Source of the DNA: Bolinopsis microptera
Taxonomy: Eukaryota; Ctenophora; Tentaculata; Lobata; Bolinopsidae
Direction: 5' to 3'
Assembly (NCBI RefSeq): GCF_026151205.1
Contig: NC_087076.1
Location: 22,686,828-22,750,827 of the forward strand
Length of the DNA: 64,000 bases
Shown: positions 4,182-64,000 of the stretch, piece by piece
How positions within the stretch are numbered: position 1 is the stretch's first letter
How the letters are laid out: each line of letters starts with the position of its first letter
Position numbers and translations under genes: made by a program
Notes under the pieces: model-generated
What the model was told of the DNA's origin: nothing
The model's input: only the letters and a program-made list of their open reading frames with translations
Database searches by the model: none

Positions 4182-4516
4182 TCCTTGTCCTTGTCCTTGT
4201 CCTTGTCCTTGTCCTTGTCCTTGTCCTTGTCCTTGTCCTTGTCCTTGTCCTTGTCCTTGTCCTTGTCCTTGTCCTTGTCCTTGTCCTTGTCCTTGTCCTT
4301 GTCCTTGTCCTTGTCCTTGTCCTTGTCCTTGTCCTTGTCCTTGTCCTTGTCCTTGTCCTTGTCCTTGTCCTTGTCCTTGTCCTTGTCCTTGTCCTTGTCC
4401 TTGTCCTTGTCCTTGTCCTTGTCCTTGTCCTTGTCCTTGTCCTTGTCCTTGTCCTTGTCCTTGTCCTTGTCCTTGTCCTTCTCCTTGTCCTTGTCCTTGT
4501 CCTTCTCCTTCTCCTT
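4182..4516. repeat. (CCTTGT)n array
   Basis: A nearly pure hexanucleotide array that continues the pyrimidine-rich block, with a few CTCCTT variants at both ends. It translates as dipeptide repeats in every frame and has no protein-coding signal. Confidence 0.96.
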
Positions 4517-4837
4517 ATTACCAACATCTTATCATCGTTGTACAATTTTTGTGGTTGCAAACTTTCAGTTCTCTGGCAACAAGGATTAAGATAGATCGCT
4601 AAATATTATGTCAATGTGTACAGTGTAACCATATATTTCCATATAACATATAGTGAAACAAATGTAATTAACTCAAGATTAAGAAGCGGTTGTAATTTAT
4701 CAAAACGCAAATTATTAAAAATCAAAACGCAAATTATCGTCATGACGGCAAAAGATATATCTTTTATTTCCAATTTGCTGCGAAAATATTGGCAGATGTG
4801 CAAAAAATCCCAAGCTTTCCTAGAATTCATGTTTTAC

Positions 4838-5040
4838 TAGCCTGTCACGTGACCAAAACGGTTTTTTTGCTTATAACTCTCCAGGGAAGCATTTTACCCT
4901 ACGTCATGGGGGGTGATTCGGAATTAGCGTCCAAAAATACATCGATTCAGATCAATTTCATACCCAAAGGGCCTTTTCACAAGCATTTTCTTAAAATTTG
5001 GGCGAGCGATTTAGTATGAGCGCGCCGAGCTATGTCATTT
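4838..5040 (+). repeat. Dispersed repeat, copy 1
   Basis: Starting at TAGCCTGTCACGTGA, this stretch matches 21060-21262 along its length (CTCCAGGG, CCTACGTCATG, GATTCGGAAT, GCCTTTTCACAAG). A diverged inverted copy lies at 43240-43450. The other two copies adjoin CCCTAA-rich DNA. No coding signal was seen. Confidence 0.75.
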
Positions 5041-22800: not shown

Positions 22801-25800
22801 TTACCAGGAACTATTGCCACTTCATCTATTATCGTTTGGGTAAAAGGGTTGTCTGCAAGATCCTTTGCACTGTTGCCCTCCAGTTTGCAGCCTGAAGGTT
22901 GCAATTTAAGTAACATATAAAAAGGAGTCTTAATAAAGATTCTTGTACTATACAAAATATGTACTAGACAAATGGATTAAAATCCCATAACACACAACCC
23001 TTTGCTCGATAAATCACAATTAAGGTGTGAAGTTGGCAAGCACTTACTTGATGTTTGAGCTGCAACACATCTGCTACTGTCACTGACCCAACAACAATGT
23101 ATAAGGTTGCACTTCCCTACAAAAAATCTAAGACAGCTAGCGCGCTCTAGCTGTCTTAGGAGGCAATTTCTAAGACAGCTAGAAATGAGGGTTGATGCGC
23201 GCTAGCTGTCGTAGGTAGCTGTCTTAAAAAACTGAGCTAGCTACGACAGCTAGCAATGACAGTTTAACCCCCATTATAATGAGGGTTTATAGATTTTGCG
23301 TCGCGCAAATAATGCCACGTAAATTGTTGTCATTATCACGTTTATTTATAAAATACAGGTTCGGTTTCCGCGCGCAGAGAATTAATCCGAAATTTTGGCC
23401 TAGTTTTCGAAAAAAATTTGTCAATTTTTAAGGCCCGATATCCTTTATTTTGTTTATAAACTGAGTTGAATTTGCTTTGGTATGATAGGTGGCATATGAA
23501 CTAACCTTTCCAGCCAGTTTTGAATGATTCTAGGTCTCTTTGCCTAACTGGACTAGCGCCTAAATCCATGAATTAGGCCATAAGACCAGTTAGTTCAGGC
23601 GACCGTTTGGGGTCTAATACTACTTTAAATTGAAGTTTAACAGACCAACAGTCCACCTTTAGTCGCTTGGCCTAACTGGACTGACGGGCTACAGTGTGAT
23701 GAGACCCGTACGTGCACCGTTTTACTCACCATGAGCTGACAAAGCATGCTATATGAGCCCGATGACGTGCTTCGACGAGTAAGTGGCCATGCTGACGTGA
23801 TCCATGTCTATATCTCTCATCAATAAAGAGCTCGTTAGCTCACACATACACAAGGGAATCAGCTGTTTTCAGGGGGATCACCAATATTTCTGGACGCTGC
23901 GCTGGATCCAAAAGGACCCCTTTCCTCAACGGCTATATACTTATATAATATGTACTTGACTAATTAATTTGGTCCATGTCATCGAGCTAGGATATAGCAT
24001 GCCCTGTCAGCTCATGTTAAGAGCAATACAGTGCACTTACGGGTCACATCACTCATGCAGTTAGGCCAGGTGACCTCAAGTAGACTATCGGCCTAAAATC
24101 TGCCCTAAGTTAGGAATAGGCCATCCGTCCGTTTGTTCAGTATACTATTACTTGTTAGGCCATTAGTCAAGTTAGGCCAAGCGTCCAGTTAAGCCAACAG
24201 ACCCGGTACCCTCTCTACCATGCCAGATTGATTACAAGTCAGCCCTGGCATACCTATTGCCTCAAATTTCTGTCCCAAATTTGTCTCAATGTGCCAAAAT
24301 CCGGGATTCATGAGTGCGGCAAAAATTGCGACAGAAAGTGGCCGCCAGTCACCGTTGAAATAGTAACACGGTTCAAATACCTGACTGCATGAATTATACT
24401 TCTTTTTGTAAATCAGATACAAGCCACTTTCCATCTATTCATTACTTCCGATACAGTTACCCAAATGATGGAATACAAATTAAAATAACAATCAAATTAT
24501 ATGAAATAATATGAGGGCATTTAAGTTTCAACCAATCCGACAACCAACTATGCTGTCATAATCAGTTTCTGTATTATATGCCATGATTTGAGGATATAGT
24601 GTAAAAACCAATCCGAGGCCGATGATAATAATACGACATTCTTGCTCGTTGCGAAGCTAATTTTCAGTCTTTTGATATTTTGTAATGCTTTAACGAAAAC
24701 GCTTTTATATTCCAATTTTCAAAGTGAATGTTATTTATAAAGAAGTACACAGAAGTTCCGAATCTCAAAATGTCAAACTTTAAATATTATACGTTCTGCA
24801 GATATCGCCAGTCTTGTAATTGGCTCTTAAAAATTGACTGATATTCAAAATATCCAATATAATGTAACTCATTTTTTGTTTTTAAATAATAGTCCTTTTA
24901 TCCTAATAACACAATTTCAGCTGTCGTCGGCGACCATTTGTTCAGAAGATAATCACGTTTCTTGGCTGCCACTCTTTGTAACTTCGTAACCTGGATAAAA
25001 AGGTGGATTAATTGTGGTTTATCTGATTCTGTTCTATCCGCGATTGTTTTATATCAAGACAAGGTGGACACTGAGGTTGATCCAGCGACCAATCAAATAT
25101 GGAGGGCAAGAGCCAAGAGGAAGCAAATGTAAGTAATATTGACAAACCAGTTGTGTCGCTGTCCAGTGTCTTTGCTGCGTGGATTTATCTTGTCGACACA
25201 GCGGTTCGTGTCAAATTGACCACATTTGTGAACGCTGAGGAAGGGAATTCGGATTACAAATTTATAATAGGGGAAGTACGGCTCTTTATAAAGATATGAT
25301 TTAGTAAAAGTAATTGCTGAATCATTAACACAATGAAAATGTGCATTGTATTGTAGATTGTATTTAACTGCAGTCAATGAATAAAAAAAGTCTGGTTCGT
25401 AGCTGAAACTTTTTCCGCCACAGTAAATGTTTTTAAATCGGATAGAATATTTAAAGGGGAAGCCAAGGGGTATTTTTGGGTACTTTGGGGGATTTCATTC
25501 TGGGGGATTTCGAAGGCGTTCATAGGCTATCGCTATCCATTATCGGTATGAAATCTTTTATCTAGATAAACAGATAAAGATTTAGGTTTTATCTAGACAA
25601 AACCGATCATTTTTCTGCTGAAGGCTAAAGCCAAAATGTTATCCAAATTTCATAAAAAACTAATTGTCGACTTTAAACATTGTTTTACCAGTAATCTTGG
25701 CAAATAAAAGTACCACTTCCTTTCTTTGAAAATAGTAAAGCACCAGTTTTCTTCTCCTAGAAAAGTAGTGCACCATGACCATTTCTCCTCAAAACAATAG

Positions 25801-28800
25801 ACCAACGGTTTCCTTCTCCCGAGAACATGAACAGTAGTGCACCAGTTCTCTTCAAAATAGTAGACCAACGGTTTCCTTCTCCCGAGAACAGTAGTGCACC
25901 AGTTCTCTTCAAAACAGTTAAGCATTAAATAATTCAGTAAACCGTTTCCTTATCCTGTGGATAACTTGGAGCAACAGATTCCTTCTCCTGGGAACAATGT
26001 TTCACGCCCAGAACACTTACGGAATACAATTGAGTGCCCTGCCGGTATTTTTGACTCTCGTTAACAGTAACATGCTCGGCCCATGCCCGTCTCCAGAATG
26101 GTTACAAAGGTAAAACGCCAGCACCCTCAAGAGAACAATACCAATAACCTTCTCTGGATTTCTACAGTTCATACAGTTCTACAGTTCCATAGGTATACAA
26201 ATGTAAATAAACCTCTTAAGCACACATCCAAGTAAAATGACATCCAAGGAATGACATAAAGATCTCTTCTCTGTGGGGGTAGTCAAACAATATGATGACC
26301 CTATTAAAGCTGAACGAATAACAACATAGTTGAAGGAATTACAACATGAGTTGGGTAGGGCAAAATGTCAAAGTTACACCCCTCTCATCCTGAGCTGTAT
26401 TTTACTAAACTAAACAGTCACACCCTGCTCCTGTTACACTAAGCTAACAGTTACACCCCGGCCCCTGTGTTACAATAAGCTAACAGTAACACCCCGCCCC
26501 CTTTGTAACACTAAGCTAACAGTTACTTCCTGCCCCCTGTGTTATACCAAGCTAACAGTTATCAGGTGTGCGCAGGATTTTTGAAAGGGCAAAGCGCCGG
26601 CTCTGAGGTTACCGTTGCGAGCAGCCCCCGGAAAATTGTTCGACTGGATTATATACTAAACCAATAGGATATCATACAGAAGGTTCAAAGCAGCAGTTGA
26701 TTAGACAATTTGTTATTAGTAATATTTTGAATTAAAAACTTGGACAAATTAAAATTAAAGATAGCACGAGTTTTAAGTTATTCTGGATATCTCCAGTCTG
26801 AAAAGATGCCGTATGGCTTAGCGTACGCTTTTTGGTACTGGATCGTGATGTCCCATGATTCTGAAATAATGATGTTTTTTGACCCTTCTGATTAAGACTG
26901 AGGCTGATCCTCAGAGCTTTCCAATTATATTAATCTGCCTATCTCAAATCTCTTTTGAGCCTCATCATACCCACTCAACTATGAGGATTGGCTTCCTAGA
27001 TTTAGGAGCAGCCAACCCATGGAAATTATATATGCACAAGGCATGTGTATCGACCTAATTAATTCGAACCTACTATATTCGTTTAAAAATAAAACTTTTG
27101 CATCATGTCATTAACGCAAATGTTTGTGAAAATGTTTATAAAATTGTTTATAAAATTATTTTGTTGCTCTGTAGAAGGCAATTAAAAAAAATTCTGGGTC
27201 AGCATTTCAAAAAGGGCCAGGGGCGGGGGCCGGCGCGGGGGGCGATCGCCTACATCGCCACCCGCCTGCGAACCAGGCCTCCCACCCTCAAATTCCCTAA
27301 AATTCTAGGTTTTAAAGGTGGTTTTCTTGGTTTTCAAACCCCTTAATTCAAGGTTTTCAGATAGCCATTTTCAAGGTTTTCAAGGTTTTTTAAGACGAAT
27401 ATGTATGTTTGCACTACGAAAACTTGTTAATTTTATCTATTTTCTCAAAACTAATGAATGAAATAATATAACCTGGACTAGGTTAGGATTGCTCAAAACA
27501 TAAATGAGGGGACTGGTGGGGCAAAGGATATGATTTTAAGCAAGAAAACTGCCGGAGGCGAAATTTATAGTTGAAATTCAAGGTTTTCAAGCGTTTTTGT
27601 GAAAATCCAAGGTTTGCAAGGTTTTTGATTCAAAATATCAGAAATCAAGGTTCTCAAGGGTTTCAAGGTTGGCTGCTGCCACACGCCCATGACAGTTACA
27701 CCCCGGCATCTATGTTACAGTTAGCTAACAGTTTCACCCCCCGGCCCTGTGTTCAGATAGCTGTATGCAATGTCTCTCAAAACTTGATTTTATAAGCTGT
27801 TCCTGATAGAATGATATCCTATCAGGAGCTCCCATGGAAAAATATTGTTCCTAGCCAAAGTTGCCCCATAAAGTTATCAGCTTTTCAAATAAAATAATCA
27901 AAAAAAGGCCTATTTTAAAATTTTGATGAGACATAATTTTTCTAAATGGTCCTTAGAACATATCCTGAAAGTTTCAAGGTGATTGCTCAAAAATGTAGGA
28001 GAAGATGGAATTTTAGTTTTCAAGGCGCGCCTAATTAAAACCGCTTGCGCAAATACACTTACATGTAATGAGCGATGACCTTTTGACGGTCATACCCTTT
28101 GACTAGGAACAATAATTTTCCTTAGCAGCAATGATTCTAAACATTTCAATGCTCACGTTTGACTAATTAAGCTAATGATTGATCTGAAAAGAAACATATT
28201 GTATGAAGTAAAGTCACTGGTAATTTGAACAGCTAAGAGCGTAAAATGGGGTTGGCTAATTAACTCAACAACCAGAAGCCTGAGGACTAAATAACAAGCC
28301 TCTACCCCACTAATATCTGAATTTTTGAACATCCAGTTACCCAAGTTTAGATTATATTCCTAACTATAATCAGCAGTAGAGTTATTTTCATTTTCTCTAT
28401 TATCACCACAGGCTAGAGCATAATTTAAGTAGGTTTTGGTCTATTAAATCGACAGCCAGCATGATGCCTGAGGAAGTTTAAACTAGGCTTTACCCCACTT
28501 AATATGATCATTTTACTACTCAATTTACGCCCCTAACTTCAATCAGAAAACCGAGTCATTTTGATTTTAAGTGCAGTGGTCGCCACATGCTCAAACTGCA
28601 GCATAAATTTTGGGTATTATGAGGACCTTTTTCACAGATGATTTCCAATGCCCATTAAGGCATTCCCAATAATACCCCTTGGTTCCTCCATAGTTCTAAC
28701 CATATAATGGCCAAACCATATGTTCTAACATAATTATTTTAATGACCAAACCTTAGTTGATTACATCTTTCATCCCGAATTGAAGCTTGACAGGATATTC

Positions 28801-31800
28801 CGCCTTTTTTCTGCCTGCTGAAATTCTTGTTACTCCTTCGAAGCTTGCAAAGCGTGTATATGTCACTTTGTGTCTAAAGTTCCTGGTCCCTGAAGGATTT
28901 TGATTGAGCAGCAGTTTAAATACGAATTTTTTAGAATCTAAAGTCCAATGATTCACAGATAATTAAGAAAACAGAAATTACAAAGTAAAAAGCAGTTATT
29001 TAGACCTTTATGGAAGCTGTGAATGTTGTGCAATAATCTTTGTGATGTTCTTATCATAATCTCACTATTCTAACACTCCTCAGCATATCAACTCTTTCAA
29101 CCTGAACAGAAATGTAAAATAAAAAGCTTTTTCGTGGCACACCTGTGCATTTTGAGTTTGTGCCACAATATTATAAAAGTTAAAATTATTATTTATATTT
29201 CATATGTAACAATCAAAGCGAGATATTACTTTTAGGTAATTAGTGGTTATCTCCCAAAAGGATTCTCACCAGTATATAATTTGAATAATCAAATTGAATA
29301 ATCAAATCTGAAATCAAACACAAAATACCTTTCTTTTACAGAGCAAATGTGTGACTTTCGTGGTGAATCATATGAAAACTTTCCCAAGTCTGCTATCCTT
29401 GTTACCAACTGACCATATCATAGCATAGACAAACCGTATGAAACATCCTAGATTATTGTAGTTTGAGAAGTCAAAACATGAATAATTAGCTCACACCTCT
29501 GAAGAGGCAATGAAGGAATAAGAATATCACGCATCGAATGGACCAAAGTGCATCAACTTTATATCAAAAGTGTATCAAAGTATCAACTTACTGCCAACGA
29601 TACAGTAGTTCTTTACAAAAAAATTCGTTTTTAGATAGAAGGTAATTCTTGGCAGACGACATTGCAAAACTAGACAAGAAAACCAAAACTTTCATGATAA
29701 ACTACTATTTACTGGCCAGTCTGAACTAACAAAATAGTCTGAACTAACAAAATAAACCTCGCTGGTCGATTAGGAGGATGAGAGAGACAACAATAACATG
29801 CACCTGAAAAAAACAGCAGGTTTGTGGCAGGTATAATGAGTGGCGAGAAGGTTAGCGCTCGATTCATAGGTGATTTTAAATTATATTATAGTTGGTGAGC
29901 CGCGCGCCAAATGAAAAAAAATTTCATAAATGATGAATCCAAAATCTAAATTTAGTTATATTCATAAGTCATTTGAAAATACCAAATACTGTCACAGAGT
30001 ATTAGAAATAAAATTAAACAAACAAATCAAAATTTGTACTTAACCCAAGTACAACGGAAATCATTTTAAAATCATCTAAACTAAACTTTTGATTTTGAGC
30101 CTGCAGCTTACTTTGTTAACTTAAAATAAATTTAAAATGCTAAACAATTTTTCGCGGCGGTCATCAAGATAAATTCGAATTTTTAATCTAAAATAAGCCC
30201 CCCCCCCCCCCCTCCCCTATTGTTTAGGAAGTTGACAGACATAATAAAAATCACATAAACATAGTGCCAAAAATGAAAATAATTTAGCAAATCTAAAATA
30301 ATATATTAATCCACATTACATTTATATTTAAAAAACATAAAAGTAATTGTATGAAATGAATTAACATGATTTTGTAAAATGAAAAAATAATTGCCGAATT
30401 CGTTTTCGGAATTAATTAAACTCAGCTTGTACATTTGTTTTCGTGTGGCTCAGATAATATTATTTTAAAATGGCATGGCTTGCATTATAATTATATAAAA
30501 GTGTTTGATAGCAAAATCATTTCAATGACAACTATAAACTTTTCTTAAACTAGCGGGGTTGATTTTGAGAGTTTTCAATTTTGGCTTTGAAAAAAGTGAC
30601 ATGTGACAGCTCCGTTTAAATTGTTTAGCAATATTATATGATATAATATAAAAATTGAAAAAAGGCAAAATAAACGATGGAGCCATGCTGCAGTATGCAG
30701 TTGCATTTATTAAAAATAATATTGTTGTTTATTTATTTGAATTTTAATATTCTTAAAAATGAATACAATTCAATTTGCAATTCATATTCAATATTCATGA
30801 TTTATGAATATGAAACTATTTTTCATTTTTTTTCATTTGGCGCGCGGCTCACCAACTATAATATAATTTAAAATCACCTATGAATCGAGCGCTAACCTTC
30901 TCGCCACTCATTTTACCTGCCACAAACCTGCTGTTTTTTCAGGTGCATGTTATTGTTGTCTCTCTCATCCTCCAATCGACCAGCCGAGGTTTATTTTGTT
31001 AGTTCAGACTATTTTGTTAGTTCAGACTGCCAGTAAATAGTAGTTATCATGAAAGTTTTGGTTTTCTTGTCTAGTTTTGAAATGTCGTTCTGCCAAGAAT
31101 TAGCCTTCTATCGTAAAACGAATTTTTTTGTAAAGAACTACTGTATCGTTTGCAGTGGTATTCTTGTGGCAGTAAGTTGATACTTTGATACACTTTTGAT
31201 ATAAAGTTGATGCACTTTGATCCATTCGATGCGTGATATTCTTATTCCTTCATTGCCTCTTCAGAGGTGTGAGCTAATTATTCATGTTTTGACTTCTCAA
31301 ACTACAATAATCTAGGATGTTTCATACGGTTGTCTATGCTATGATATGGTCAGTTGGTAACAAGGATAGCAGACTTGGGAAAGTTTTCATATGATTCACC
31401 ACGAAAGTCACACATTTGCTCTGTAAAAGAAAGGTATTTTGTTGTTTGATTTCAGATTTGATTATTCAATTTGATTATTCAAATTATATACTGGTGAGAA
31501 TCCTTTTGGGAGGATAACCACTAATTACCTAAAAGTAATATCTCGCTTTGATTGTTACATATGAAATATAAATAATAATTTTAACTTTTATAATATTGTG
31601 GCACAAAACTCAAAATGCACAGGTGTGCCACGAAAAAGCTTTTTATTTTACATTTCTGTTCAGGTTGAAAGAGTTGATATGCTGAGGAGTGTTAGAATGG
31701 AGATTATGATAAGAACATCACAAAGATGTATTGCACAACATTCACAGCTTCATAAAGGTCTAAATAACTGCTTTTTACTTGTAATTCTGTTTTCTTAATT

Positions 31801-34800
31801 ATCTGTGAATACATTTGGACTTTAGATTCTAAAAAATTCGTATTTAACTGCTGCTCAATCAAAATCCTTCAGGGACCAGGAACTTAAGACACAAAGTGAC
31901 ATATACACGCTTTGCAACTTCGAAGGAGTAGACAAGAATTTCAGCAGCAGAAAAAAGGCGGAATATCCTGTCAAGCTTCAATTCGGATTGAAAGATGAAA
32001 TCAACTAAGGTTTGTCATTAAAATAATTATGTTAGAACATATGGTTTGGCCATTATATGGTTAGAACTATGGGGGAAGCCAAGGGGTATTATTGGGAATG
32101 CCTTAATGGGCATTGGAAATCATCTGTGAAAAAGGTCCTCATAATTACCCAAAATTATGCTGCAGTTTGATGCATGTTGCGACCACTGCACTTAAAATCA
32201 AAATGACTCGGTTTCTGATTGAAGTTAGGGGCTTAAATTGAGTAGTAAAATGATCATATTAAGTGGGGTAAAGCCTAGGTTAAACTTCCTCAGGCATCAT
32301 GCTGGGCTGTCGATTTAATAGACCAAAACCTACTTAAATTATGCTCTAGCCTGTGGTGATAATAGAGAAAATGAAAATAACTCTACTGCTGATTATAGTT
32401 AGGAATATAATCTAAACTTGGGTAACTGGATGTTCAAAATTCAGATTATTAGTGGGGTAGAGCTTGGTTTTTAAGTCCTCAGGCTTCTGGTTGTTGAGTT
32501 AATTAGCCAAACCCCATTTTTACGCTCTTAGCTGTTCAAATTACCAGTGACTTTACTTCATACAATATGTTTCTTTTCAGATCAATCATTAGCTTAATTA
32601 GTCAAACGTGAGCATTGAAATGTTTAGAATCATTGCTGCTAAGGAAAATTATTGTTCCTAGTCAAGGGTATGACCGGTCAAAGGTCATCGCTCATTACAT
32701 GTAATTGTATTGCGCAAGCGGTTTTCAATAGCGCGCCTTGAAAACTAAAATTCCATCTTCTCCTACATTTTTTGAGCAATCACCTTGAAACTTTCAGGAT
32801 ATGTTCTAAGGACCATTTAGAAAAATTATGTCTCATCAAAATTTTAAAATAGGCCTTTTTTTGATTATTTTATTTGAAAAGCTGATAACTTTATGGGGCA
32901 ACTTTGGCTAGGAACAATATTTTCCATGGGAGCTCCTGATAGATATCATTCTATCAGGAACAGCTATAAAATCAATTTTGAGAGACATTGCATACAGCTA
33001 TCTGAAACACAGGGGCCGGGGTGAAACTGTTAGCTAACTGTAACATAGATGCCGGGGTGTAACTGTCATGGGCGTGTGCAGCAGCCAACCTTGAAACCCT
33101 TGAGAACCTTGATTTCTGATATTTTGAATCAAAAACCTTGCAAACCTTGGATTTTCACAAAAACGCTTGAAAACCTTGAATTTCAACTATAAATTTCGCC
33201 TCCGGCAGTTTTCTTGCTTAAAATCATATCCTTTGCCCCACCAGTCCCCTCATTTATGTTTTGAGCAATCCTAACCTAGTCCAGGTTATATTATTTCATT
33301 CATTAGTTTTGAGAAAATAGATAAAATTAACAAGTTTTCGTAGTGCAAACATACATATTCGTCTTAAAAAACCTTGAAAACCTTGAAAATGGCTATCTGA
33401 AAACCTTGAATTAAGGGTTTGAAACCAAGAAAACCACCTTTAAAACCTAGAATTTTAGGGAATTTGAGGGTGGGAGGCCTGGTTCGCAGGCGGGTGGCGA
33501 TGTAGGCGATCGCCCCCCGCGCCGGCCCCCGCCCCTGGCCCTTTTTGAAATGCTGACCCAGAATTTTTTTTAATTGCCTTCTACAGAGCAACAAAATAAT
33601 TTTATAAACAATTTTATAAACATTTTCACAAACATTTGCGTTAATGACATGATGCAAAAGTTTTATTTTTAAACGAATATAGTAGGTTCGAATTAATTAG
33701 GTCGATACACATGCCTTGTGCATATATAATTTCCATGGGTTGGCTGCTCCTAAATCTAGGAAGCCAATCCTCATAGTTGAGTGGGTATGATGAGGCTCAA
33801 AAGAGATTTGAGATAGGCAGATTAATATAATTGGAAAGCTCTGAGGATCAGCCTCAGTCTTAATCAGAAGGGTCAAAAAACATCATTATTTCAGAATCAT
33901 GGGACATCACGATCCAGTACCAAAAAGCGTACGCTAAGCCATACGGCATCTTTTCAGACTGGAGATATCCAGAATAACTTAAAACTCGTGCTATCTTTAA
34001 TTTTAATTTGTCCAATGTTTTAAATTCAAAATATTACTAATAACAAATTGTCTAATCAACTGCTGCTTTGAACCTTCTGTATTGATATCCTATTGGTTTA
34101 GTATATAATCCAGTCGAACAATTTTCCGGGGGCTGCTCGCAACGGTAACCTCAGAGCCGGCGCTTTGCCCTTTCAAAAATCCTGCGCACACCTGATAACT
34201 GTTAGCTTGGTATAACACAGGGGGCAGGATGTAACTGTTAGCTTAGTGTTACAAAGGGGGCGGGGTGTTACTGTTAGCTTATTGTAACACAGGGGCCGGG
34301 GTGTAACTGTTAGCTTAGTGTAACAGGAGCAGGGTGTGACTGTTAGTTTAGTAAAATACAGCTCAGGATGAGAGGGGTGTAACTTTGACATTTTGCCCTA
34401 CCCAACTCATGTTGTAATTCCTTCAACTATGTTGTTATTCGTTCAGCTTTAATAGGGTCATCATATTGTTTGACTACCCCACAGAGAAGAGATCTTTATG
34501 TCATTCCTTGGATGTCATTTTACTTGGATGTGTGCTTAAGAGGTTTATTTACATTTGTATACCTATGGAACTGTAGAACTGTATGAACTGTAGAAATCCA
34601 GAGAAGGTTATTGGTATTGTTCTCTTGAGGGTGCTGGCGTTTTACCTTTGTAACCATTCTGGAGACGGGCATGGGCACGAGCATGTTACTGTTAACGAGA
34701 GTCAAAAATACCGGCAGGGCACTCAATTGTATTCCGTAAGTGTTCTGGGCGTGAAACATTGTTCCCAGGAGAAGGAATCTGTTGCTCCAAGTTATCCACA

Positions 34801-37800
34801 GGATAAGGAAACGGTTTACTGAATTATTTAATGCTTAACTGTTTTGAAGAGAACTGGTGCACTACTGTTCTCGGAGAAGGAAACCGTTGGTCTACTATTT
34901 TGAAGAGAACTGGTGCACTACTGTTCATGTTCTCGGGAGAAGGAAACCGTTGGTCTATTGTTTTGAGGAGAAATGGTCATGGTGCACTACTTTTCTTAGG
35001 AGAAGAAAACTGGTGCTTTACTATTTTCAAAAGAAAGGAAGTGGTACTTTTATTTGCCAAGATTACTGGTAAAACAATGTTTAAAGTCGACAATTAGTTT
35101 TTTATGAAATTTGGATAACATTTTGGCTTTAGCCTTCAGCAGAAAAATGATCGGTTTTGTCTAGATAAAACCTAAATCTTTATCTGTTTATCTAGATAAA
35201 AGATTTCATACCGATAATGGATAGCGATAGCCTATGAACGCCTTCGAAATCCCCCAGAATGAAATCCCCCAAAGTACCCAAAAATACCCCTTGGCTTCCC
35301 CTTTAAATATTCTATCCGATTTAAAAACATTTACTGTGGCGGAAAAAGTTTCAGCTACGAACCAGACTTTTTTATTCATTGACTGCAGTTAAATACAATC
35401 TACAATACAATGCACATTTTCATTGTGTTAATGATTCAGCAATTACTTTTACTAAATCATATCTTTATAAAGAGCCGTACTTCCCCTATTATAAATTTGT
35501 AATCCGAATTCCCTTCCTCAGCGTTCACAAATGTGGTCAATTTGACACGAACCGCTGTGTCGACAAGATAAATCCACGCAGCAAAGACACTGGACAGCGA
35601 CACAACTGGTTTGTCAATATTACTTACATTTGCTTCCTCTTGGCTCTTGCCCTCCATATTTGATTGGTCGCTGGATCAACCTCAGTGTCCACCTTGTCTT
35701 GATATAAAACAATCGCGGATAGAACAGAATCAGATAAACCACAATTAATCCACCTTTTTATCCAGGTTACGAAGTTACAAAGAGTGGCAGCCAAGAAACG
35801 TGATTATCTTCTGAACAAATGGTCGCCGACGACAGCTGAAATTGTGTTATTAGGATAAAAGGACTATTATTTAAAAACAAAAAATGAGTTACATTATATT
35901 GGATATTTTGAATATCAGTCAATTTTTAAGAGCCAATTACAAGACTGGCGATATCTGCAGAACGTATAATATTTAAAGTTTGACATTTTGAGATTCGGAA
36001 CTTCTGTGTACTTCTTTATAAATAACATTCACTTTGAAAATTGGAATATAAAAGCGTTTTCGTTAAAGCATTACAAAATATCAAAAGACTGAAAATTAGC
36101 TTCGCAACGAGCAAGAATGTCGTATTATTATCATCGGCCTCGGATTGGTTTTTACACTATATCCTCAAATCATGGCATATAATACAGAAACTGATTATGA
36201 CAGCATAGTTGGTTGTCGGATTGGTTGAAACTTAAATGCCCTCATATTATTTCATATAATTTGATTGTTATTTTAATTTGTATTCCATCATTTGGGTAAC
36301 TGTATCGGAAGTAATGAATAGATGGAAAGTGGCTTGTATCTGATTTACAAAAAGAAGTATAATTCATGCAGTCAGGTATTTGAAACCGTGTTACTATTTC
36401 AACGGTGACTGGCGGCCACTTTCTGTCGCAATTTTTGCCGCACTCATGAATCCCGGATTTTGGCACATTGAGACAAATTTGGGACAGAAATTTGAGGCAA
36501 TAGGTATGCCAGGGCTGACTTGTAATCAATCTGGCATGGTAGAGAGGGTACCGGGTCTGTTGGCTTAACTGGACGCTTGGCCTAACTTGACTAATGGCCT
36601 AACAAGTAATAGTATACTGAACAAACGGACGGATGGCCTATTCCTAACTTAGGGCAGATTTTAGGCCGATAGTCTACTTGAGGTCACCTGGCCTAACTGC
36701 ATGAGTGATGTGACCCGTAAGTGCACTGTATTGCTCTTAACATGAGCTGACAGGGCATGCTATATCCTAGCTCGATGACATGGACCAAATTAATTAGTCA
36801 AGTACATATTATATAAGTATATAGCCGTTGAGGAAAGGGTCCTTTTGGATCCAGCGCAGCGTCCAGAAATATTGGTGATCCCCCTGAAAACAGCTGATTC
36901 CCTTGTGTATGTGTGAGCTAACGAGCTCTTTATTGATGAGAGATATAGACATGGATCACGTCAGCATGGCCACTTACTCGTCGAAGCACGTCATCGGGCT
37001 CATATAGCATGCTTTGTCAGCTCATGGTGAGTAAAACGGTGCACGTACGGGTCTCATCACACTGTAGCCCGTCAGTCCAGTTAGGCCAAGCGACTAAAGG
37101 TGGACTGTTGGTCTGTTAAACTTCAATTTAAAGTAGTATTAGACCCCAAACGGTCGCCTGAACTAACTGGTCTTATGGCCTAATTCATGGATTTAGGCGC
37201 TAGTCCAGTTAGGCAAAGAGACCTAGAATCATTCAAAACTGGCTGGAAAGGTTAGTTCATATGCCACCTATCATACCAAAGCAAATTCAACTCAGTTTAT
37301 AAACAAAATAAAGGATATCGGGCCTTAAAAATTGACAAATTTTTTTCGAAAACTAGGCCAAAATTTCGGATTAATTCTCTGCGCGCGGAAACCGAACCTG
37401 TATTTTATAAATAAACGTGATAATGACAACAATTTACGTGGCATTATTTGCGCGACGCAAAATCTATAAACCCTCATTATAATGGGGGTTAAACTGTCAT
37501 TGCTAGCTGTCGTAGCTAGCTCAGTTTTTTAAGACAGCTACCTACGACAGCTAGCGCGCATCAACCCTCATTTCTAGCTGTCTTAGAAATTGCCTCCTAA
37601 GACAGCTAGAGCGCGCTAGCTGTCTTAGATTTTTTGTAGGGTTGGATTCCTCTGTTACAGGGTCTGCATGGGCCGGCATTAAACAATCAATAGTGTTTAT
37701 CCCACTCCTATCAGCAGGGCACTTTTCATCTCCCGATGAGGCATCGGATGCATATTGGTCTGAAATAAAGGGAATATTTATAAAAGCAATTAAATCACGG

Positions 37801-44290: not shown

Positions 44291-44508
44291 CAGAGTTTAT
44301 TTAAACTTGACATACAGAACTTATTGTCCTTGCGTTTCAGCCTAGGGCCTCCAGCGTTCAAGTAATGTCCGTCCAAATAAGGTCCGATAAGGTAACTTCT
44401 ATTTCTTGGCCAATTTTTTATTTTTTCATGCTGATTTTAAAAAGTTTCAGTTGTACATCTTTTACGGTTAAAGTCGCGTAAATTTTATATTACGGTTTTT
44501 GTATCCCA

Positions 44509-45456
44509 GGGTCAGGGTCAGGGTCAGGGTCAGGGTCAGGGTCAGGGTCAGGGTCAGGGTCAGGGTCAGGGTCAGGGTCAGGGTCAGGGTCAGGGTCAGG
44601 GTCAGGGTCAGGGTCAGGGTCAGGGTCAGGGTCAGGGTCAGGGTCAGGGTCAGGGTCAGGGTCAGGGTCAGGGTCAGGGTCAGGGTCAGGGTCAGGGTCA
44701 GGGTCAGGGTCAGGGTCAGGGTCAGGGTCAGGGTCAGGGTCAGGGTCAGGGTCAGGGTCAGGGTCAGGGTCAGGGTCAGGGTCAGGGTCAGGGTCAGGGT
44801 CAGGGTCAGGGTCAGGGTCAGGGTCAGGGTCAGGGTCAGGGTCAGGGTCAGGGTCAGGGTCAGGGTCAGGGTCAGGGTCAGGGTCAGGGTCAGGGTCAGG
44901 GTCAGGGTCAGGGTCAGGGTCAGGGTCAGGGTCAGGGTCAGGGTCAGGGTCAGGGTCAGGGTCAGGGTCAGGGTCAGGGTCAGGGTCAGGGTCAGGGTCA
45001 GGGTCAGGGTCAGGGTCAGGGTCAGGGTCAGGGTCAGGGTCAGGGTCAGGGTCAGGGTCAGGGTCAGGGTCAGGGTCAGGGTCAGGGTCAGGGTCAGGGT
45101 CAGGGTCAGGGTCAGGGTCAGGGTCAGGGTCAGGGTCAGGGTCAGGGTCAGGGTCAGGGTCAGGGTCAGGGTCAGGGTCAGGGTCAGGGTCAGGGTCAGG
45201 GTCAGGGTCAGGGTCAGGGTCAGGGTCAGGGTCAGGGTCAGGGTCAGGGTCAGGGTCAGGGTCAGGGTCAGGGTCAGGGTCAGGGTCAGGGTCAGGGTCA
45301 GGGTCAGGGTCAGGGTCAGGGTCAGGGTCAGGGTCAGGGTCAGGGTCAGGGTCAGGGTCAGGGTCAGGGTCAGGGTCAGGGTCAGGGTCAGGGTCAGGGT
45401 CAGGGTCAGGGTCAGGGTCAGGGTCAGGGTCAGGGTCCGGGTCAGGGTCAGGGTCA
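44509..45456. repeat. (TCAGGG)n telomere-variant array, 158 units
   Basis: 948 bp of GGGTCA in perfect register, with one variant unit (GGGTCC at 45433-45438). TCAGGG differs from the canonical metazoan TTAGGG by one base. The array is internal, with complex sequence on both sides, and its reading frames (VR, DP, TL dipeptides) are not genes. Confidence 0.97.
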
Positions 45457-45639
45457 GTGCCACGACTGATCCAGCCATTGTCGTGCGAAGTACCTACAGC
45501 TTTACACGTCACGAGGCATACTGTTCCTACTCAAGTATTGTATCCTACAAATCTTCTCTCCAGATACTATTTATTCAGGCAATACTATCGAGAATATATC
45601 TATTTATATTTAAAACTTGACGAAAAAATCCATAATTTC

Positions 45640-48428: not shown

Positions 48429-48830
48429 GCGACAGTGCCGCCATAGTGCCACGAGACTGCCACGAGAGTGCCACGACAGTGCCACGATAGTGCCACGACG
48501 GTGCCACGATAGTGCCACGACAGTGCCACGACAGTGCCACGATAGTGCCATGAAAGTGCCATGACAGTGCCACCACAGTGCCACGACAGTGCCATGATAG
48601 TGCCACGACAGTGCCACGACAGTGCCACGACAGTGCCACGACAGTGCCACGACAGTGCCACGATAGTGCCACGACAGTGCCACGACAGTGCCACGACAGT
48701 GCCACGACAGTGCCACGACAGTGCCACGACAGTGCCACGATAGTGCCACGACAGTGCCGCGACAGTGCCACGACAGTGCCACGACAGTGCCACAACAGTG
48801 CCACGACAGTGCCACGACAGTGCCACGACT
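48429..48830. repeat. 11-bp minisatellite (AGTGCCACGAC)n
   Basis: About 36 units, with ATAGTGCC and AGTGCCGC variants. Short inverted patches of the same unit occur at 46550-46612 and 48110-48165, at the end of each 1.1-kb duplicate. ORFs on both strands are period artefacts. Confidence 0.95.
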
Positions 48831-50199: not shown

Positions 50200-51347
50200 A
50201 GAAATTGTAGATTGTGAGTTATTTCGAAAAGTGTGATTTTGGGCTGAATAAAAGATCGCAGCTTTATAACTTTGCAAATTAATTTGGTTTTGATGACTCC
50301 ATAGATGAATGCAGGTTCAAGGTTGTAACACACGTGCAGAGCAACAAGCTTTACGTCACGTGCGACGACAAACAGGCTATTGAAAAATTATCACCTCTAG
50401 TAACACCGCCAGTCAGTAAGGTTTTTTGGTTATGTACATTGTTTGACCATTGTTAATGATAAGGCCCGGCGCGCGCTACTTCGTAGCACTTGTGACTTGC
50501 CATCGGGCCAAAATTTCGAGAAGAAAGCGGCGCGCGCTACTTCGAAGAAATTTAGACTAGTAACATCCGTCAATAGGTTATGATAATACAAACTGTAAAG
50601 CATAAAGTAATTTAGCACGCTTGTAGGAGGACCAACCACTCAAAATTTAAAAGTAAATAAGTTCCAATCGGATTTTTTACCTAGCTGGCTCGCTAATCCA
50701 TGTGCGCGGCGCTCTTTTCATGCTTACTTATCCTAATCATATTGCATACATTTATTAAAAATGACAGAGTCCTTAATGTTATGTGGAAAAGATTACATTC
50801 ACACCACTGGTATTTAGTACTGCAGGAGGAATGGCGTTTTAGGCTTCACAATTCCTGAAATATCTTTGATCTTGCTGAAAAGATCACCTTTAATAATTAA
50901 GGCCAAAGAAAGCTCCGTCAAGGATCGTAAGCTGAAAGCTCTAGCAAGTCTCTAAAGTATGTTATATACCCTATATAAAAAAAACCGTGCTTAAGGAAAA
51001 CATGGGGTTACAGAAAGGTATATCAATATTTAGGAAATCTAGAGGAAATGATATGTGACACTGTGATGTGATGTCATTTGTCAGGCAGAGACTATGCTTG
51101 AATTTGCTCAGAACCCTGCCAGGATATATAAAAAATAAAAATGAACCTGTATAATCTCTATCATATCAGGGGTTACAGAGGTACCATAACTCTTTCATCT
51201 GCGGCAATAAATGATTTGCACCTAATCAATACTGCTAGTATATAGTAAATCTTAAAAGGTCAGTGAGTGCTTGTTCGGTGAGGTTCTGAACTGGTTGTTG
51301 TTGTGATGTGAGCTTGTACATTTGCGAATTTTTAAAAAAAAAAGCGC
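50200..51347. other. No gene seen
   Basis: AT-rich sequence. GCGCGCTACTTCG occurs twice (about 50473 and 50532). Nothing with coding potential or a recognisable LINE endonuclease domain was found upstream of the reverse transcriptase. Confidence 0.5.
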
Positions 51348-53380
51348 ATGAGAAAGAACAAAGATAAAGCATGGACTGCATTTGATATTGAACCTTCTAG
51401 TGTTAATCTTAGTCATGCAAGTAGTAAACAGCTCATCTATGAAAATGAGGAAGTGAAAGCAAAGATAAGATATGAGAAGAAGATAACTTCCAATTTAAAG
51501 ATCAATTGTAAATCATTTTATTCTTATTTGAGAAATAAGAGAAAGGTTAAAGCTTCGGTACCAAGTTTAGATAAGGAAGACGGTACAAGGACAACTAGTG
51601 CAGGGGAGTCTGCAGAGGTACTTGCAAGTGCCTTTAGTTCTGTGTTTGTTAATGAGCCACTCGGCCCATTACCTAGAAGTTATAGTAAGAATACTAATAG
51701 TATATCTGATATTGTTATTACCTTTGATAATGTTAAAAAGGAACTATTAAAGCTTAATATTTTTAAAAGCACTGGCCCAGATGGGCATCATCCAAAGCTG
51801 CTTAAGTCCCTAGCTGGAGATGCTAGTTTTGTAACAGCTCTTACTAAATTATTTAGTGCCTGTAGTGATACTGGAAATCTTCCGGAGGTATGGAAGTCGG
51901 CATCTGTAGTTGCACTTTTTAAAAAGGGCTCTAAGTCTGACCCTCTTAACTATAGACCAGTTTCTCTTACTTGTATTCTTTGTAAAGTTTATGAACAGTT
52001 TGTTAGATCCCATGTGTTAGAATTTTTAGAAGACCGTATTTCAAAGGACCAACATGGGTTTGTTAAAGGAAAATCTTGTTTGTCAAATCTTTTGGAGACT
52101 TTCGACACTATACTTAATTTAATAGATGAAGGTGCTCCGGTGGACTTATTTTATTTTGATTTTAGTAAAGCTTTCGATTCTGTTCCCCATTATCGCTTGA
52201 TTAACAAGCTAGAGAGTCTAGGGATAACTGGTAAAGTTTTAGATGTAATTACAGATTTTATCTCAAATAGAACTATGAGAGTGTGTGTAGAAGGTGAAAC
52301 TTCAGAGTGGAAGATTGTATGGTCAGGAGTTCCCCAGGGATCAGTCCTTGGACCATTACTATTTGTGTTATTTATTAATGATTTACCAGATAACATTAAA
52401 AGTAAAGTTAAAATATTTGCTGATGATCTTAAGCTTATAGCTAATGCCTCCGAGCATGAAACTATAGCTAATGATCTGAACGAACTAGAGATGTGGGAGA
52501 GTAAATGGCTTTTAAAGTTTAATCCTACTAAGTGTTCGATAACCCAAGATCAAGTTATTCTCTTAATGGAGTTACATTGGCAGAATCTGTACAGGAAAAA
52601 GACTTGGGAGTTATAACCCATAACTCTCTGCTTTGGAATGAACAGATTAAGGCTTCAATATCTAAAGCCAACAGAATGATATGTTGGATTGTTAGAAATC
52701 TGATTATCAGGGAAAAATCTGTGATGATATCCATTTACAAAGCTTTAATAAGACCCCATTTAGAGTATTGTGTTCAATTGTGGAGTCCAGTTGCGGCTCA
52801 TGGAAGTTGGGGGATCATCTTGGAGCTGGAGAGCGTCCAGAGGCGGTTTACCCGTCTGATTGACGAGGTGGGTACTCTTCCATACAGTCGTCGACTGGAA
52901 ATCCTCAATTTAACAACGCTGGCAGAGCGGCGAATACGTGGGGACCTCATTGAATCTTTTAAAATGATAAGTGGTTTGGCCAATTACGGAGCTGGTTTGT
53001 TCAGTATGAGCAGATCTGGTTTTAATGTGGTATCAAACAGTAGATGCAGTAAAAGTAGCAGTAAAATAAAGAAAGTCCACAGTTCTTTTCTTCCGGAGAG
53101 GGTGAGACCTTATTGGAACAAACTCCCCTCGGATGTCAAGAATTGTGGGACTGTGTTAAGTTTTAAAATAAGATTAGAAGCTTTCAAAAAAGAGACTATT
53201 TTAAACGGATCCGTAAATGATATTCATTTTTGGTATGTTTCGGACGAAGTATTAGGAAAGATTGAGGGATTAAATTATGCTACTAATAAAGAGAAGCACA
53301 ATGAATATCTTGTGTGTAATCCTCATGTTGCTAAGAAACGCTTTATTAACTTATATAGTAGTGGAAAGTATGTAAATTAG
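51348..53380 (+). mobile_element. CR1-like non-LTR retrotransposon, 5'-truncated, frameshifted
   Basis: The first frame (51348-52616) holds the reverse transcriptase: STGPDGHHPKLL, NYRPVSLTCILCKVYE, FYFDFSKAFDSVPHYRL (first Asp), GVPQGSVLGPLLF, and the catalytic FADD box (VKIFADDLKL). The second frame (52532-53380) continues with the thumb and C-terminus: EKDLGVITHNSLLW, LIRPHLEYCVQLWSP, LESVQRRFTRLI, RVRPYWNKLP. The frames overlap after WLLKFNPTKC, where a small deletion with frameshift seems to have occurred. No endonuclease domain lies upstream. Family features point to the CR1/jockey group. This copy should not be active. Confidence 0.9.
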
Positions 53381-55099: not shown

Positions 55100-56100
55100 T
55101 TAGGCCCTAACAATTATAGGATGTATTTGCCTCTGGGTAATGAAACACGAAAACATCGCAACAAACTTTGCCTTGATGAAATTCTGAAAGCTTGTTAGGG
55201 ACATCATGTAGATGAAAACATTGGCAATGTTGTTCAAGTATGGAATACACTGACAAAACATTGCCAATTTAAGGTTTCTGTCACTATCACTGGCAATCAC
55301 CTCAAGGACATAATATCCAAAAAGAGGCAACATACTAATGCAATAAACAGCAGCTATTAAGATTACAGTTAAGGTTCCCTGAATATTAACTGATCTCCCT
55401 TGTCGGTGATTCAGCCTTATAGCAATCACTATCAGCCAGATGCCAGAAATCACTACTGTAATGGTACAGAGTAGTGCAACACTAAATACTACAATAGCTG
55501 ATTTAATAAACAATTGATATTCAATCAACATGTCACAACTTAGATTACTATTATAGTATACAACGTTAATTTTATCTTTTTGCAGAACAAATATTAAATT
55601 AAGGGCTAATGAGAGAGCCCAGATGCAGCATGCTATAATGTGTCCTTGTCCACAAGTCCATGTTGCACTCCTAAATGGAAACAGGATAGAAGCCAGTTTA
55701 GAACAGTTCACAGCAGTAATCAAAAAACCAGTAGCAGACACCAAAAACCATCTGGAGTATGCTTGAAAAGCACAGAATTGTTTGCCTAGCAACCAATGGT
55801 CCGTGATGGCAGCCAAGCAAGTGGGGAAGAGAACTGCAAATGTAGTTAAGAGGTCCAAAACTGCAACATGTTGAATCAATGCAGTTGTTATCTTGCCCAA
55901 CCTAATTAGCTAATTGCTTTCTGTTTAGTAGCGATTAAGATTACAGTACTTCCAATCAGTCCAATAAGTGTACCAAGAAGGAAAAACGTAGAGAAGAGTG
56001 AACGAGCCAAAACAGGGTTCACATTGTTATCAAGCCACCAGTTCTTCGCGTATCCTCCAAACAAACTGTAATTGTTTGGAGGGGCCCATATTTTCCCCAT
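55100..56100 (-). pseudogene. Class A (rhodopsin-like) GPCR, intronless, one frameshift after TM1
   Basis: It begins MGKIWAPPNNYSLFGGYAKN (ATG at 56100-56098), with TM1 around FLLGTLIGLIGSTVILIAT, then hits a TAA at 55908-55906. A second frame takes over directly (LIRLGKITTALI) with TM2 (AVLDLL, Asp2.50), the extracellular Cys (GKQFCAFQAY), TM3 (FLVSATGFLITAVNCSKL), a Cys in the second extracellular loop (LSCDM), TM5, TM6 and TM7 with NVFIY in place of NPxxY. The DRY position reads NCSK, unusual for class A. Length, about 330 codons, is normal. The break is one site in the first intracellular loop, at TTAGCTAATTAG, and everything after it is clean. It may be a recent mutation or a sequence error. 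The ligand is unknown. Confidence 0.8.
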
Positions 56101-61944: not shown

Positions 61945-64000
61945 ATGCAATCTTCATCAGGTAAGAACTTTAATACTTTACTTTACTTTAACATTTATCT
62001 GCTTTGTTCTAATTATTACGCACTCAGTATTTCGACACGGAATAATGCGTTCCTCTACATTGCCAGTCCTAATTAGTCAGCATATTATGTTAATGACAGC
62101 ATATTATGGTAATGACAGCATATTATGTTAATGACAGCATATTATGTTAATGACAGCATATTATGGTAATGACAGCATATTATGTTAATGACAGCATATT
62201 ATGTTTATGACACTTGTTGAGGTTAGTTAAACATTTGATAGTACGTCGACGACTGAACATTAGTCAGGTAGCAATGTAGCATGACTAGAAGATAACTGCT
62301 TCGTCTAGATAACTATTGTTTCTTAATTTTTAATGTGATAATATATTAGCGTTTGTTAAATATGATAAAGTTTATCAACATGTCAGTTTATCCAACTCCA
62401 CCATTTCCATGATTTCAGGAACTGTCACCCCTCCCCCAAAGAACAAGATGATCAGGCAGAACGCTACAGGAACAAAAGGCCGGAATGTCGCGCTGATCTC
62501 CAACAGCTTCCAGATTAACTTCAAGAAACCCTCCCTCAGTATCTTCCAGTTTGACCTGTCCATCGTGAACCCCAACAGGAATAACGATAATAACGCTAAC
62601 AGTGTTCCCTCTAGAGGAGTTTGTGATGAGGTGTACAAACAGCTGAATCTCGGAGCAGAGTGGGCCTACGATGGAAAGAAGAACCTGTACTCTCCGTCAG
62701 GAGAGGGCGTCCATATATCAAGGTAATTTATGTTTTGCCTGATTCACGTAGTTAGGGATGATTGTAAATCGAGACGGTGCCCGGGTGGTTCTAATGGGAT
62801 TTTCGATAGCTGGTTTTAACAAAGAGGTAACAATATTTACCTCTTTACATATATATATATATATATAGGGCAGTTTCGGAATAACCGTGCCCCAGGTGGT
62901 TTTGCCCGAGATGTGCCCCAGGTGTGCCTGAGATGTGCCCCAGGTGTGCCCCAGGTGGTCCTGCCCGAGGTGTGCCCGAGATGTGCCCGAGATGTGCCCG
63001 AGATGTGCCCAGGTTCTTTTCCCAAGGTTTCCCAATTACCATGCCCGAATTTTGCCCGAGATGTGCCCGAGGTGTGCCCGAGGTGTGCCCGAGGTGTGCC
63101 CCAGGTGGTTCTGCCCGAGGTGTGCCCGAGGTGTGCTTTGTGCCCGAGGTGTGCCCGAGGTGTGCCCGAGGTGTGCCCGAGTTTGTGCCCCAGGTGTGCC
63201 CGAGGTGTGCCCCAGATGTGCATCGGCAGATTACCGAGTTACCGCTGAGGAAATAGCCCTGTTATTCCGTCAAATAATTGGTGTGTGGTTCCGGGATCCG
63301 GATGTTTGTAAGGCAGTTTCGGTAACCCTAATTAGCTGTGGAAATAGCCCTGTTATTCCGTCAAATAATTGGTGTGTGGTTCCGGGATCCGGATGTTTGT
63401 AAGGCAGTTTCGGTAACCCTAATTAGCTGTGGAAATAGCCCTGTCATTCCGTTAAATAATTGGTGTGTGGTTCCGGGATCCGGATGTTTGTAAGGCAGTT
63501 TCGGTAACTCTAATTAGCTGTGGAAATAGCCCTGTCATTCCGTTAAATAATTGGTGTGTGGTTCCGGGATCCGGATGTTTGTAGGGCAGTTTCGGTAACC
63601 CTAATTAGCTGTGGAAATAGCCCTGTCATTCCGTTAAATAATTGGTTTTTAGGAAGTATAGCCTCATAAACTAAGATTGAGCAGTCAACCAGCTTGACTT
63701 TTGACAGCTGTGTACCTTTGTTACAGTATAGTAATCTGGTCGAAGTTGAGATTTTTGGATAATCCTAATAAGTCTGGGGGATAAGTAAACTAGGTTCTGA
63801 GCAAATGAGCAAATGAGAACTATGATTTCTCGACTTCGCAACAAGGGTTACTAGATACTTGTGTGATTTTTCAAAAAGCTTTTGGTGCCATTCTAACCAT
63901 CAATAACTTGTACATCATTGCTACGTTAATCTCCGTCTTCTTCTTCAGGAAAATAAAGCTCGGCAGAACTGAATTCGAGGTAGAAGTGCAGGGTCCGGTG
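61945..64000 (+). CDS. AGO: Argonaute, N-terminal exons, truncated by window end
   Basis: Argonaute proteins bind small RNAs and silence matching transcripts. Coding exons are 61945-61960 (ATG, five codons), 62419-62722 and 63949-64000, with GT-AG sites and continuous phase. The protein starts MQSSSGTVTPPPKNK, then GTKGRNVALISNSFQINF, the GxKGRxxxLxxNxF block that opens the ArgoN domain, FQFDLSIVNPN in place of the YxYDVxIxP strand, AEWAYDGKKNLYSPSGEG (the AYDGxKNLY signature) and KIKLGRTEFEVEVQG. The GTKGR block and YDGKKNLYS favour the AGO clade over Piwi. The linker, PAZ, MID and PIWI domains lie beyond the window, so slicer residues cannot be judged. An upstream in-frame TAA at 61867-61869 with no later ATG fixes the start. 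Confidence 0.88.
62079..62212. repeat. 19-bp tandem repeat, about 7 copies
   Basis: CAGCATATTATGTTAATGA units with GG variants, in the Argonaute intron between the first and second coding exons. Confidence 0.93.
62882..63228. repeat. 11-bp minisatellite (TGCCCGAGGTG)n
   Basis: About 30 units, with TGCCCCAGGTG and TGCCCGAGATG variants, in the intron after the second Argonaute coding exon. Long ORFs in several frames are artefacts. Confidence 0.94.
63250..63650. repeat. 91-bp tandem repeat, about 4.4 copies
   Basis: GAAATAGCCCTGT begins at 63250, 63341, 63432, 63523 and 63614, an exact 91-bp period. Each unit contains TTCCGGGATCCGGATGTTTG. Same Argonaute intron. Confidence 0.96.

Follow-up and report, generated by a model that had tools for sequence, protein, structure and literature searches.

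A probable family of giant palindromic DNA transposons in the comb jelly Bolinopsis microptera

In the chromosomes of eukaryotes, a long perfect palindrome is expected to be unstable, and foldback elements of the FB type carry a target-site duplication (TSD) of 9 bp. The closest case among the matches we found is the transposon Galileo, a member of the P superfamily, whose longest copy in Drosophila willistoni measures 9,021 bp, lacks a transposase segment and has terminal inverted repeats (TIRs) of 4,246 and 4,680 bp (PMC4168063). The same report gives TSDs of 7-8 bp and describes three copies with significantly extended TIRs, and recruitment of internal sequence into the TIRs, together with exchange, has been proposed for Galileo (PMC3573991). 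Here we describe a palindrome at positions 23115-37641 of a 64,000-nucleotide stretch of the genome of the ctenophore Bolinopsis microptera (contig NC_087076.1, positions 22,686,828 to 22,750,827 of the forward strand; the whole stretch is called the window), which we consider likely to be a young copy of a non-autonomous DNA transposon that comprises several families and normally takes the form of a giant palindrome. Set against described elements of the foldback or long-TIR kind, its size, the palindromic state in all three families, and its ends and duplication stand out as unusual.

Self-comparison of the window resolved 23115-37641 as a 14,527-bp inverted repeat, in which 23115-29922 aligns with 37641-30825 at 98.5% identity over 6,852 columns with 79 gap positions. 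The left arm (23115-29922, plus strand, 6,808 bp), which has the same type of end as the elements at other loci, and the right arm (30825-37641, minus strand, 6,817 bp), which is the left arm inverted, make up 94% of the copy and enclose a loop of 902 bp (29923-30824). The 20-bp core of the terminal inverted repeat, CCCTACAAAAAATCTAAGAC, has a single occurrence on each strand of the window, at 23115 (23115-23134, plus) and at 37622 (37622-37641, minus). Read directly, TT borders the element on the left (23113-23114) and on the right (37642-37643), a match that holds at 2 bp and fails at 3 bp. When stop-to-stop frames of at least 90 amino acids were listed, the longest within the palindrome had 133. 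The original prediction had proposed a single inserted, nearly perfect palindrome of 14.5 kb with a 0.9-kb loop, identical terminal sequence, a clean 2-bp TT duplication and no visible transposase, and each of these points was borne out, the self-comparison it had called for included. A chance origin of the palindrome is excluded because, in the search for other genomic copies that it had also proposed, the terminal 300 bp recurs as inverted end pairs at four other places.

The genome searched comprised 264.65 Mb in 232 contigs, and all copy counts are lower bounds. Eight two-ended copies of 1.1-36 kb were found, with inverted end pairs of family A on C5 (the window copy), C8, C6, C4 and C12, of family B on C3, and of family C on C10 and C11; seven of the eight have the long palindromic form. 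Searches with the terminal 300 bp gave family A copies of 15,660 bp on C8, 14,877 bp on C4 and 36,391 bp on C6, the last swollen by insertions, and a diverged family A copy on C12 measures 1,096 bp. At C12:9225948-9232755 (L027:948-7755), the 1.1-kb A-type mini-palindrome, with the TSD TA, sits within a few bases of the centre of another palindrome of 6.8 kb (88%). The family B copy (C3:1925931-1952238) spans 26.3 kb including a nested transposon and has the ends CCCTACAAAAAATCTAGCCAGG, and the family C copies (C10:5599477-5614419, 14.9 kb; C11:18204457-18224800, 20.3 kb) have the ends CCCTCATAAAAATA. Element ends thus read CCCTA or CCCTC, that is, CCC..GGG. Exact matches to the first 16 bp of CCCTACAAAAAATCTAAGAC number 15 genome-wide, and each of the 15 marks the end of an A or B element; allowing up to one mismatch raises the count to 31, where the reversed control pattern gives 9. 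No runs of N were present in the 15 loci checked.

The three families differ by about 20-35% in long aligned blocks, and all retain the palindrome. Aligned pieces of the A and B arms are 64-82% alike, the longest good block being 0.8 kb at 78%, and those of the A and C arms 63-76% alike. The pieces are largely collinear among A, B and C, with an exception near arm position 4650-5017, a stretch that we take to be a dispersed repeat because its matches run in either orientation and occur beyond the C element as well.

Insertion left a 2-bp duplication throughout. The TSDs of the eight two-ended copies are TT, TG, CA, CA, TA, TT, CT and TA, so that the flanks match in 8/8 cases at 2 bp and in 0/8 at 3 bp while the sequence itself varies; from the base composition of the window, a 2-bp flank match is calculated to arise by chance at about 0.07 per random site. 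Each two-ended copy has unlike flanks on its left and right, joined by the 2-bp repeat, and no target motif was seen by eye around the insertion sites. The comparison of boundaries and duplications among copies, suggested at the outset, thus gave fixed ends and a uniform TSD length.

Like the long-TIR copies of Galileo, the comb-jelly elements are non-autonomous and consist almost entirely of inverted repeat, but the TSD is 2 bp here against 7-8 bp in Galileo, the ends are unrelated, the arms are longer, and the long form, exceptional in Galileo, is the usual one here. Of the features of foldback elements (FB and Galileo-like), a composition of mostly inverted repeat is found in these copies, whereas a TSD of 7-9 bp is not. 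The original prediction was therefore right that the element is giant for a foldback element, while its suggestion of an undescribed class needs correcting, since long-TIR and foldback relatives are known, among them the 9,021-bp Galileo copy (PMC4168063). A literature search of partial coverage returned no giant palindromic ctenophore transposon among the matches listed.

Since no transposase was recognised in the loci read, placement in a superfamily has to be judged from the TSD and the ends. CMC transposons (CACTA/EnSpm, Mirage, Chapaev) carry clusters of subterminal repeats, and the TSD of piggyBac is TTAA. TSDs of 2-4 bp are reported for CMC (PMC4482050), and the wider CMCT group is described as having TSDs of 2-5 bp and, mostly, CA..TG ends (PMC12730594); the 2-bp TSD seen here is of fitting length, whereas the CCC..GGG ends depart from the usual CA..TG, and in the large copies the arms measure about 7 kb or more. 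ISL2EU (PHIS), which has a 2-bp TSD with AT duplicated (PMC4482050), and Tc1/mariner, in which the 2-bp TSD is generally TA (PMC10045372), share the length of the duplication, but 0/8 of our TSDs are AT and just 2/8 are TA, and piggyBac, with CC..GG ends, has a TSD of 4 bp (PMC10045372) as opposed to 2 bp here. Judged by these sequence features, ISL2EU, Tc1/mariner and piggyBac fail on the duplication and Galileo and FB on its length, while CMC fits in length, not in its usual ends. A parallel of another kind is offered by the conserved inverted repeats of Caenorhabditis, whose arms are alike within a species and diverge between species around a faster-changing spacer, and for which gene conversion was proposed (Zhao 2007; PMC1803023). 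As in those repeats, palindromic arms here stay alike within a unit while the sequences diverge; the Caenorhabditis repeats, however, are not mobile, and their arms are shorter.

An indication of how the palindrome persists comes from the arms of the four large family A copies. Within a copy, the outer arms differ at 0 (window), 2 (C8), 3 (C6) and 5 (C4) of about 2,970-2,990 sites, and between these copies at 3-23 of as many sites. Across the eight arms, 6,545 sites were readable in all (263 of 6,808 were excluded for gaps), of which 6,454 are invariant and 91 variable. At 43 of the 91 the two arms agree in all four copies while the copies differ, another 43 are changes in a single arm (15 of them in the left arm of the window copy), and 5 fit neither class. 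A tree of the A arms pairs them by copy with support of 0.92-1.00, and in the second family C copy the outer 129 bases are identical between the arms. Because the arms of each large A copy share its changes, they have been homogenised or remade repeatedly, and again after the A copies split. On the longer scale, given that the families differ as much as they do yet arms within copies are far more alike, homogenisation or remaking of the palindrome has also taken place after the families separated, unless each family formed its palindrome anew.

An increase of arm divergence towards the centre, also claimed in the original prediction, is present in the window copy, where 20 of the 22 substitutions between the arms fall past arm position 4400 of 6,808 (binomial tail 8e-8), that is, in the inner left arm at 27515-29922 (plus strand), where the changes peculiar to this copy cluster. 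In a comparison with six other arms, 15 of these 22 occur in the left arm alone, and the copies on C8, C6 and C4 have no comparable clear gradient, so the claim does not extend to them. The simplest reading is that the inner left-arm divergence represents a local patch in the window copy; gene conversion, one of the two causes originally offered, remains a fitting explanation in general.

A central difference that the A copies do have in common is the asymmetric loop, inherited in all four large copies, although in C6 an insert splits it. Unique as the loop may seem, its left half and, once reverse-complemented, its right half match one and the same segment of the family B arms, with scores of 145.5 and 97.0 against the right arm (shuffle maxima 61 and 62) and of 103.5 and 72.5 against the left arm (shuffle maxima 65.5 and 66; each with 60 shuffles). 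The reverse strand of family C gave scores of 106 and 81.5 (shuffle maxima 64.5 and 74.5). In family C, the left half in both orientations and the right half in one exceed the shuffles at a single position, which is what the centre of a palindrome should give, while the right half in its remaining orientation did not (59.0 against 70). Three of the four reverse-orientation controls on B stayed within the shuffles. Because both halves match the same B arm segment, we take the loop for the decayed remains of the centre of a once complete ancestral palindrome rather than for foreign sequence, the outer arms having been kept alike. Such a decayed centre would be a feature of the A copies in common, in distinction to the patch in the inner left arm of the window copy.

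These elements are probably mobilised by a transposase made elsewhere in the genome, which would bind the clustered subterminal motifs together with the CCCT ends and move the element by cut and paste. Arm-to-arm copying, through gene conversion or template switching and perhaps during repair of the excision break, would then keep the arms identical, while the centre of the palindrome would escape this copying and decay, which may in turn ease replication of the palindrome. Loss of an arm would give rise to the common one-ended copies; this is our own explanation for them, and incomplete copying is the alternative. In this mobile family, which belongs to an early-branching animal phylum, the giant palindrome appears to be the normal state, preserved while at least three families diverged, with elements of up to about 26 kb or more that are almost wholly mirror-image repeat and whose well-preserved copies keep their halves nearly identical. 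The copies are natural replicates in which insertion age, arm divergence, decay of the centre and loss of arms can be measured and the persistence of the palindrome tested directly, and they provide test cases for the copying, movement and maintenance of unstable palindromes. They could also be a source of inversions and of long double-stranded RNA. A bolder proposal, which we regard as rather unlikely, is that a new lineage outside the described superfamilies, as its CCC..GGG ends and variable 2-bp duplication might suggest, works in palindromic form, being copied by way of a hairpin intermediate that rebuilds both arms from one, so that a palindrome of 15-26 kb is selected and inherited instead of tolerated.

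Several observations weigh against the interpretation as a non-autonomous transposon with arms kept alike. No transposase was recognised in the loci read and no autonomous copy was found, neither of which is proof of absence, and none of the loci compared offered an empty site. Homogenisation is uneven: the family B arms are 97.0% identical over 4.9 kb and 94.2% over 2.8 kb, and in the first C copy the outer 3.3 kb of the arms are 98.4% identical and one gapped inner stretch of 0.8 kb 83.2%. As to the loop, one reverse-orientation control on B rose above the shuffles (63.5 against 56), and direct comparison of the two loop halves gave a weak match (65 against a shuffle maximum of 60.5). At least 11 partnerless ends turned up in the searches (six A, three B and two C), which the interpretation accounts for solely by arm loss; one of them is 98-99% identical to family A and breaks off at arm position 1649. 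In one simpler history, an ordinary transposon would have become palindromic a single time, through inverted dimerisation or extension of its TIRs, and was then moved by plain cut and paste without any maintenance. The A copies are indeed young and nearly identical, and a single origin is plausible given the report that the TIRs of Galileo lengthen as internal sequence is recruited into them (PMC3573991). Such a history, however, predicts that the arms of a copy would have diverged as far as the families have (18-37% where they align), whereas the arms differ at 0-5 sites per 3 kb in A, by about 3-6% in B and by 1.6% in the outer part of C, and the changes common to both arms of A copies disfavour it further; we therefore consider it unlikely. 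The one-off palindromic dimer entertained in the original prediction similarly fails to explain why diverged families are all palindromic with copy-specific identity of the arms. Alternatively, the palindrome might be remade at each move, by strand foldback or through a copied hairpin-ended intermediate, so that the arms are identical at insertion. This would account for identical outer arms and copy-specific sharing as well as for one-ended copies as incomplete products, but the inheritance of the asymmetric loop in all four large A copies means that remaking would have to begin outside the loop, and no replicative enzyme was seen, which makes this history, too, an improbable one.

That the palindromes are artefacts of assembly or of long-read foldback seems extremely unlikely. 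Foldback artefacts in long reads have been described (PMC12870357), but every two-ended copy lies between two different flanks that share a 2-bp repeat at the junctions, and the large A copies differ in length, contain nested inserts and carry copy-specific variants in both arms. A last candidate explanation names as the transposase of the palindromes a gene that lies within the family B loop (C3:1935971-1940456; L031, L032). Modelled with 11 exons and 753 amino acids, it is open, has a GT donor and an AG acceptor at every intron, and is identical over most of its length to LOC134820989. The unit of about 6.4 kb that holds it, however, lies between (TCTG)n runs in the C3 copy, has inverted ends of its own and recurs at no fewer than nine other loci without CCCT ends, and for this reason we take it to be a nested transposon and consider a role of the gene in moving the palindromes very unlikely. 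Its protein had no Pfam and no PDB match, and possibly represents an undescribed transposase family.

Further searches for coding or structured sequence in the elements were negative. Similarity of the A arms to B and C runs through many frames, stops included, and the arms were rejected as genes. The arm block best conserved in families A, B and C (24562-25475, plus strand; alignment of 6 sequences) is noncoding, and was also rejected as a structured RNA, covariation terms being positive (unfavourable) on both strands, with two-sided change in 4/100 and 1/78 pairs. The PF02992 model, used to look for a CMC-type DDE transposase with C2C and H3-4H motifs, had no match here, but none in the controls either; a PHROGs scan of two open reading frames was empty, and the predicted structure of P0001 (mean pLDDT 33) was not used. 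In a one-ended copy on C12, an open frame of 284 amino acids (L022:6261-7112, minus strand) lies inside or beside the arm and is 99% identical to the B. microptera entry LOC134824296 (370 amino acids in the record), for which one protein entry, its own, was retrieved and all Pfam matches were sub-threshold, so that it is not an evident transposase; a second protein search, with alignment, added only one further Bolinopsis entry. Searches of the window against Rfam at gathering thresholds and for tRNAs were empty.

Near the ends, the motif AAGACAGCTAG forms a subterminal cluster at 23130-23253 (plus strand), three copies in each of two orientations, and no other site exists in the arm at up to one mismatch. 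In families A-C, short motifs that are repeated or palindromic and specific to each family crowd the outer 100-180 bp or so (family C judged by eye), and the AAGACAGCTAG cluster may comprise transposase-binding sites.

Other inverted repeats and incomplete copies were also met. For the one-ended copy on C213, the partner may be lost at the contig end. A pair on C11 (8323222/8361115) that matches the element end at 15/16 positions was rejected, the inverted repeat continuing beyond that point; it belongs to another inverted repeat, C11:8323029-8361300, 96% alike over the 0.75 kb seen, with its halves about 36 kb apart, which is not a family end. A separate, loopless palindromic element of 1.3 kb is present at L020:3626-4939 and L028:1907-3232 (97-99%), in one case within a one-ended family A copy.

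Elsewhere in the window, a tandem repeat with a 233-bp unit occupies 1-2278 (9.8 units, 97% alike) and extends to the window start, and a (CAGGGT)n array at 44507-45457 comprises about 158 units at 99% regularity. Shorter arrays lie at 48430-48829 (11 bp, 36 units) and 63244-63646 (91 bp, 4.4 units). A reverse-transcriptase open reading frame of a LINE-like element lies at 51336-52613 (RVT_1, 4e-34), with a second, overlapping frame reaching 53377, and the minus strand at 55103-55909 holds a reading frame of a rhodopsin-type G protein-coupled receptor (7tm_1, 1e-15).

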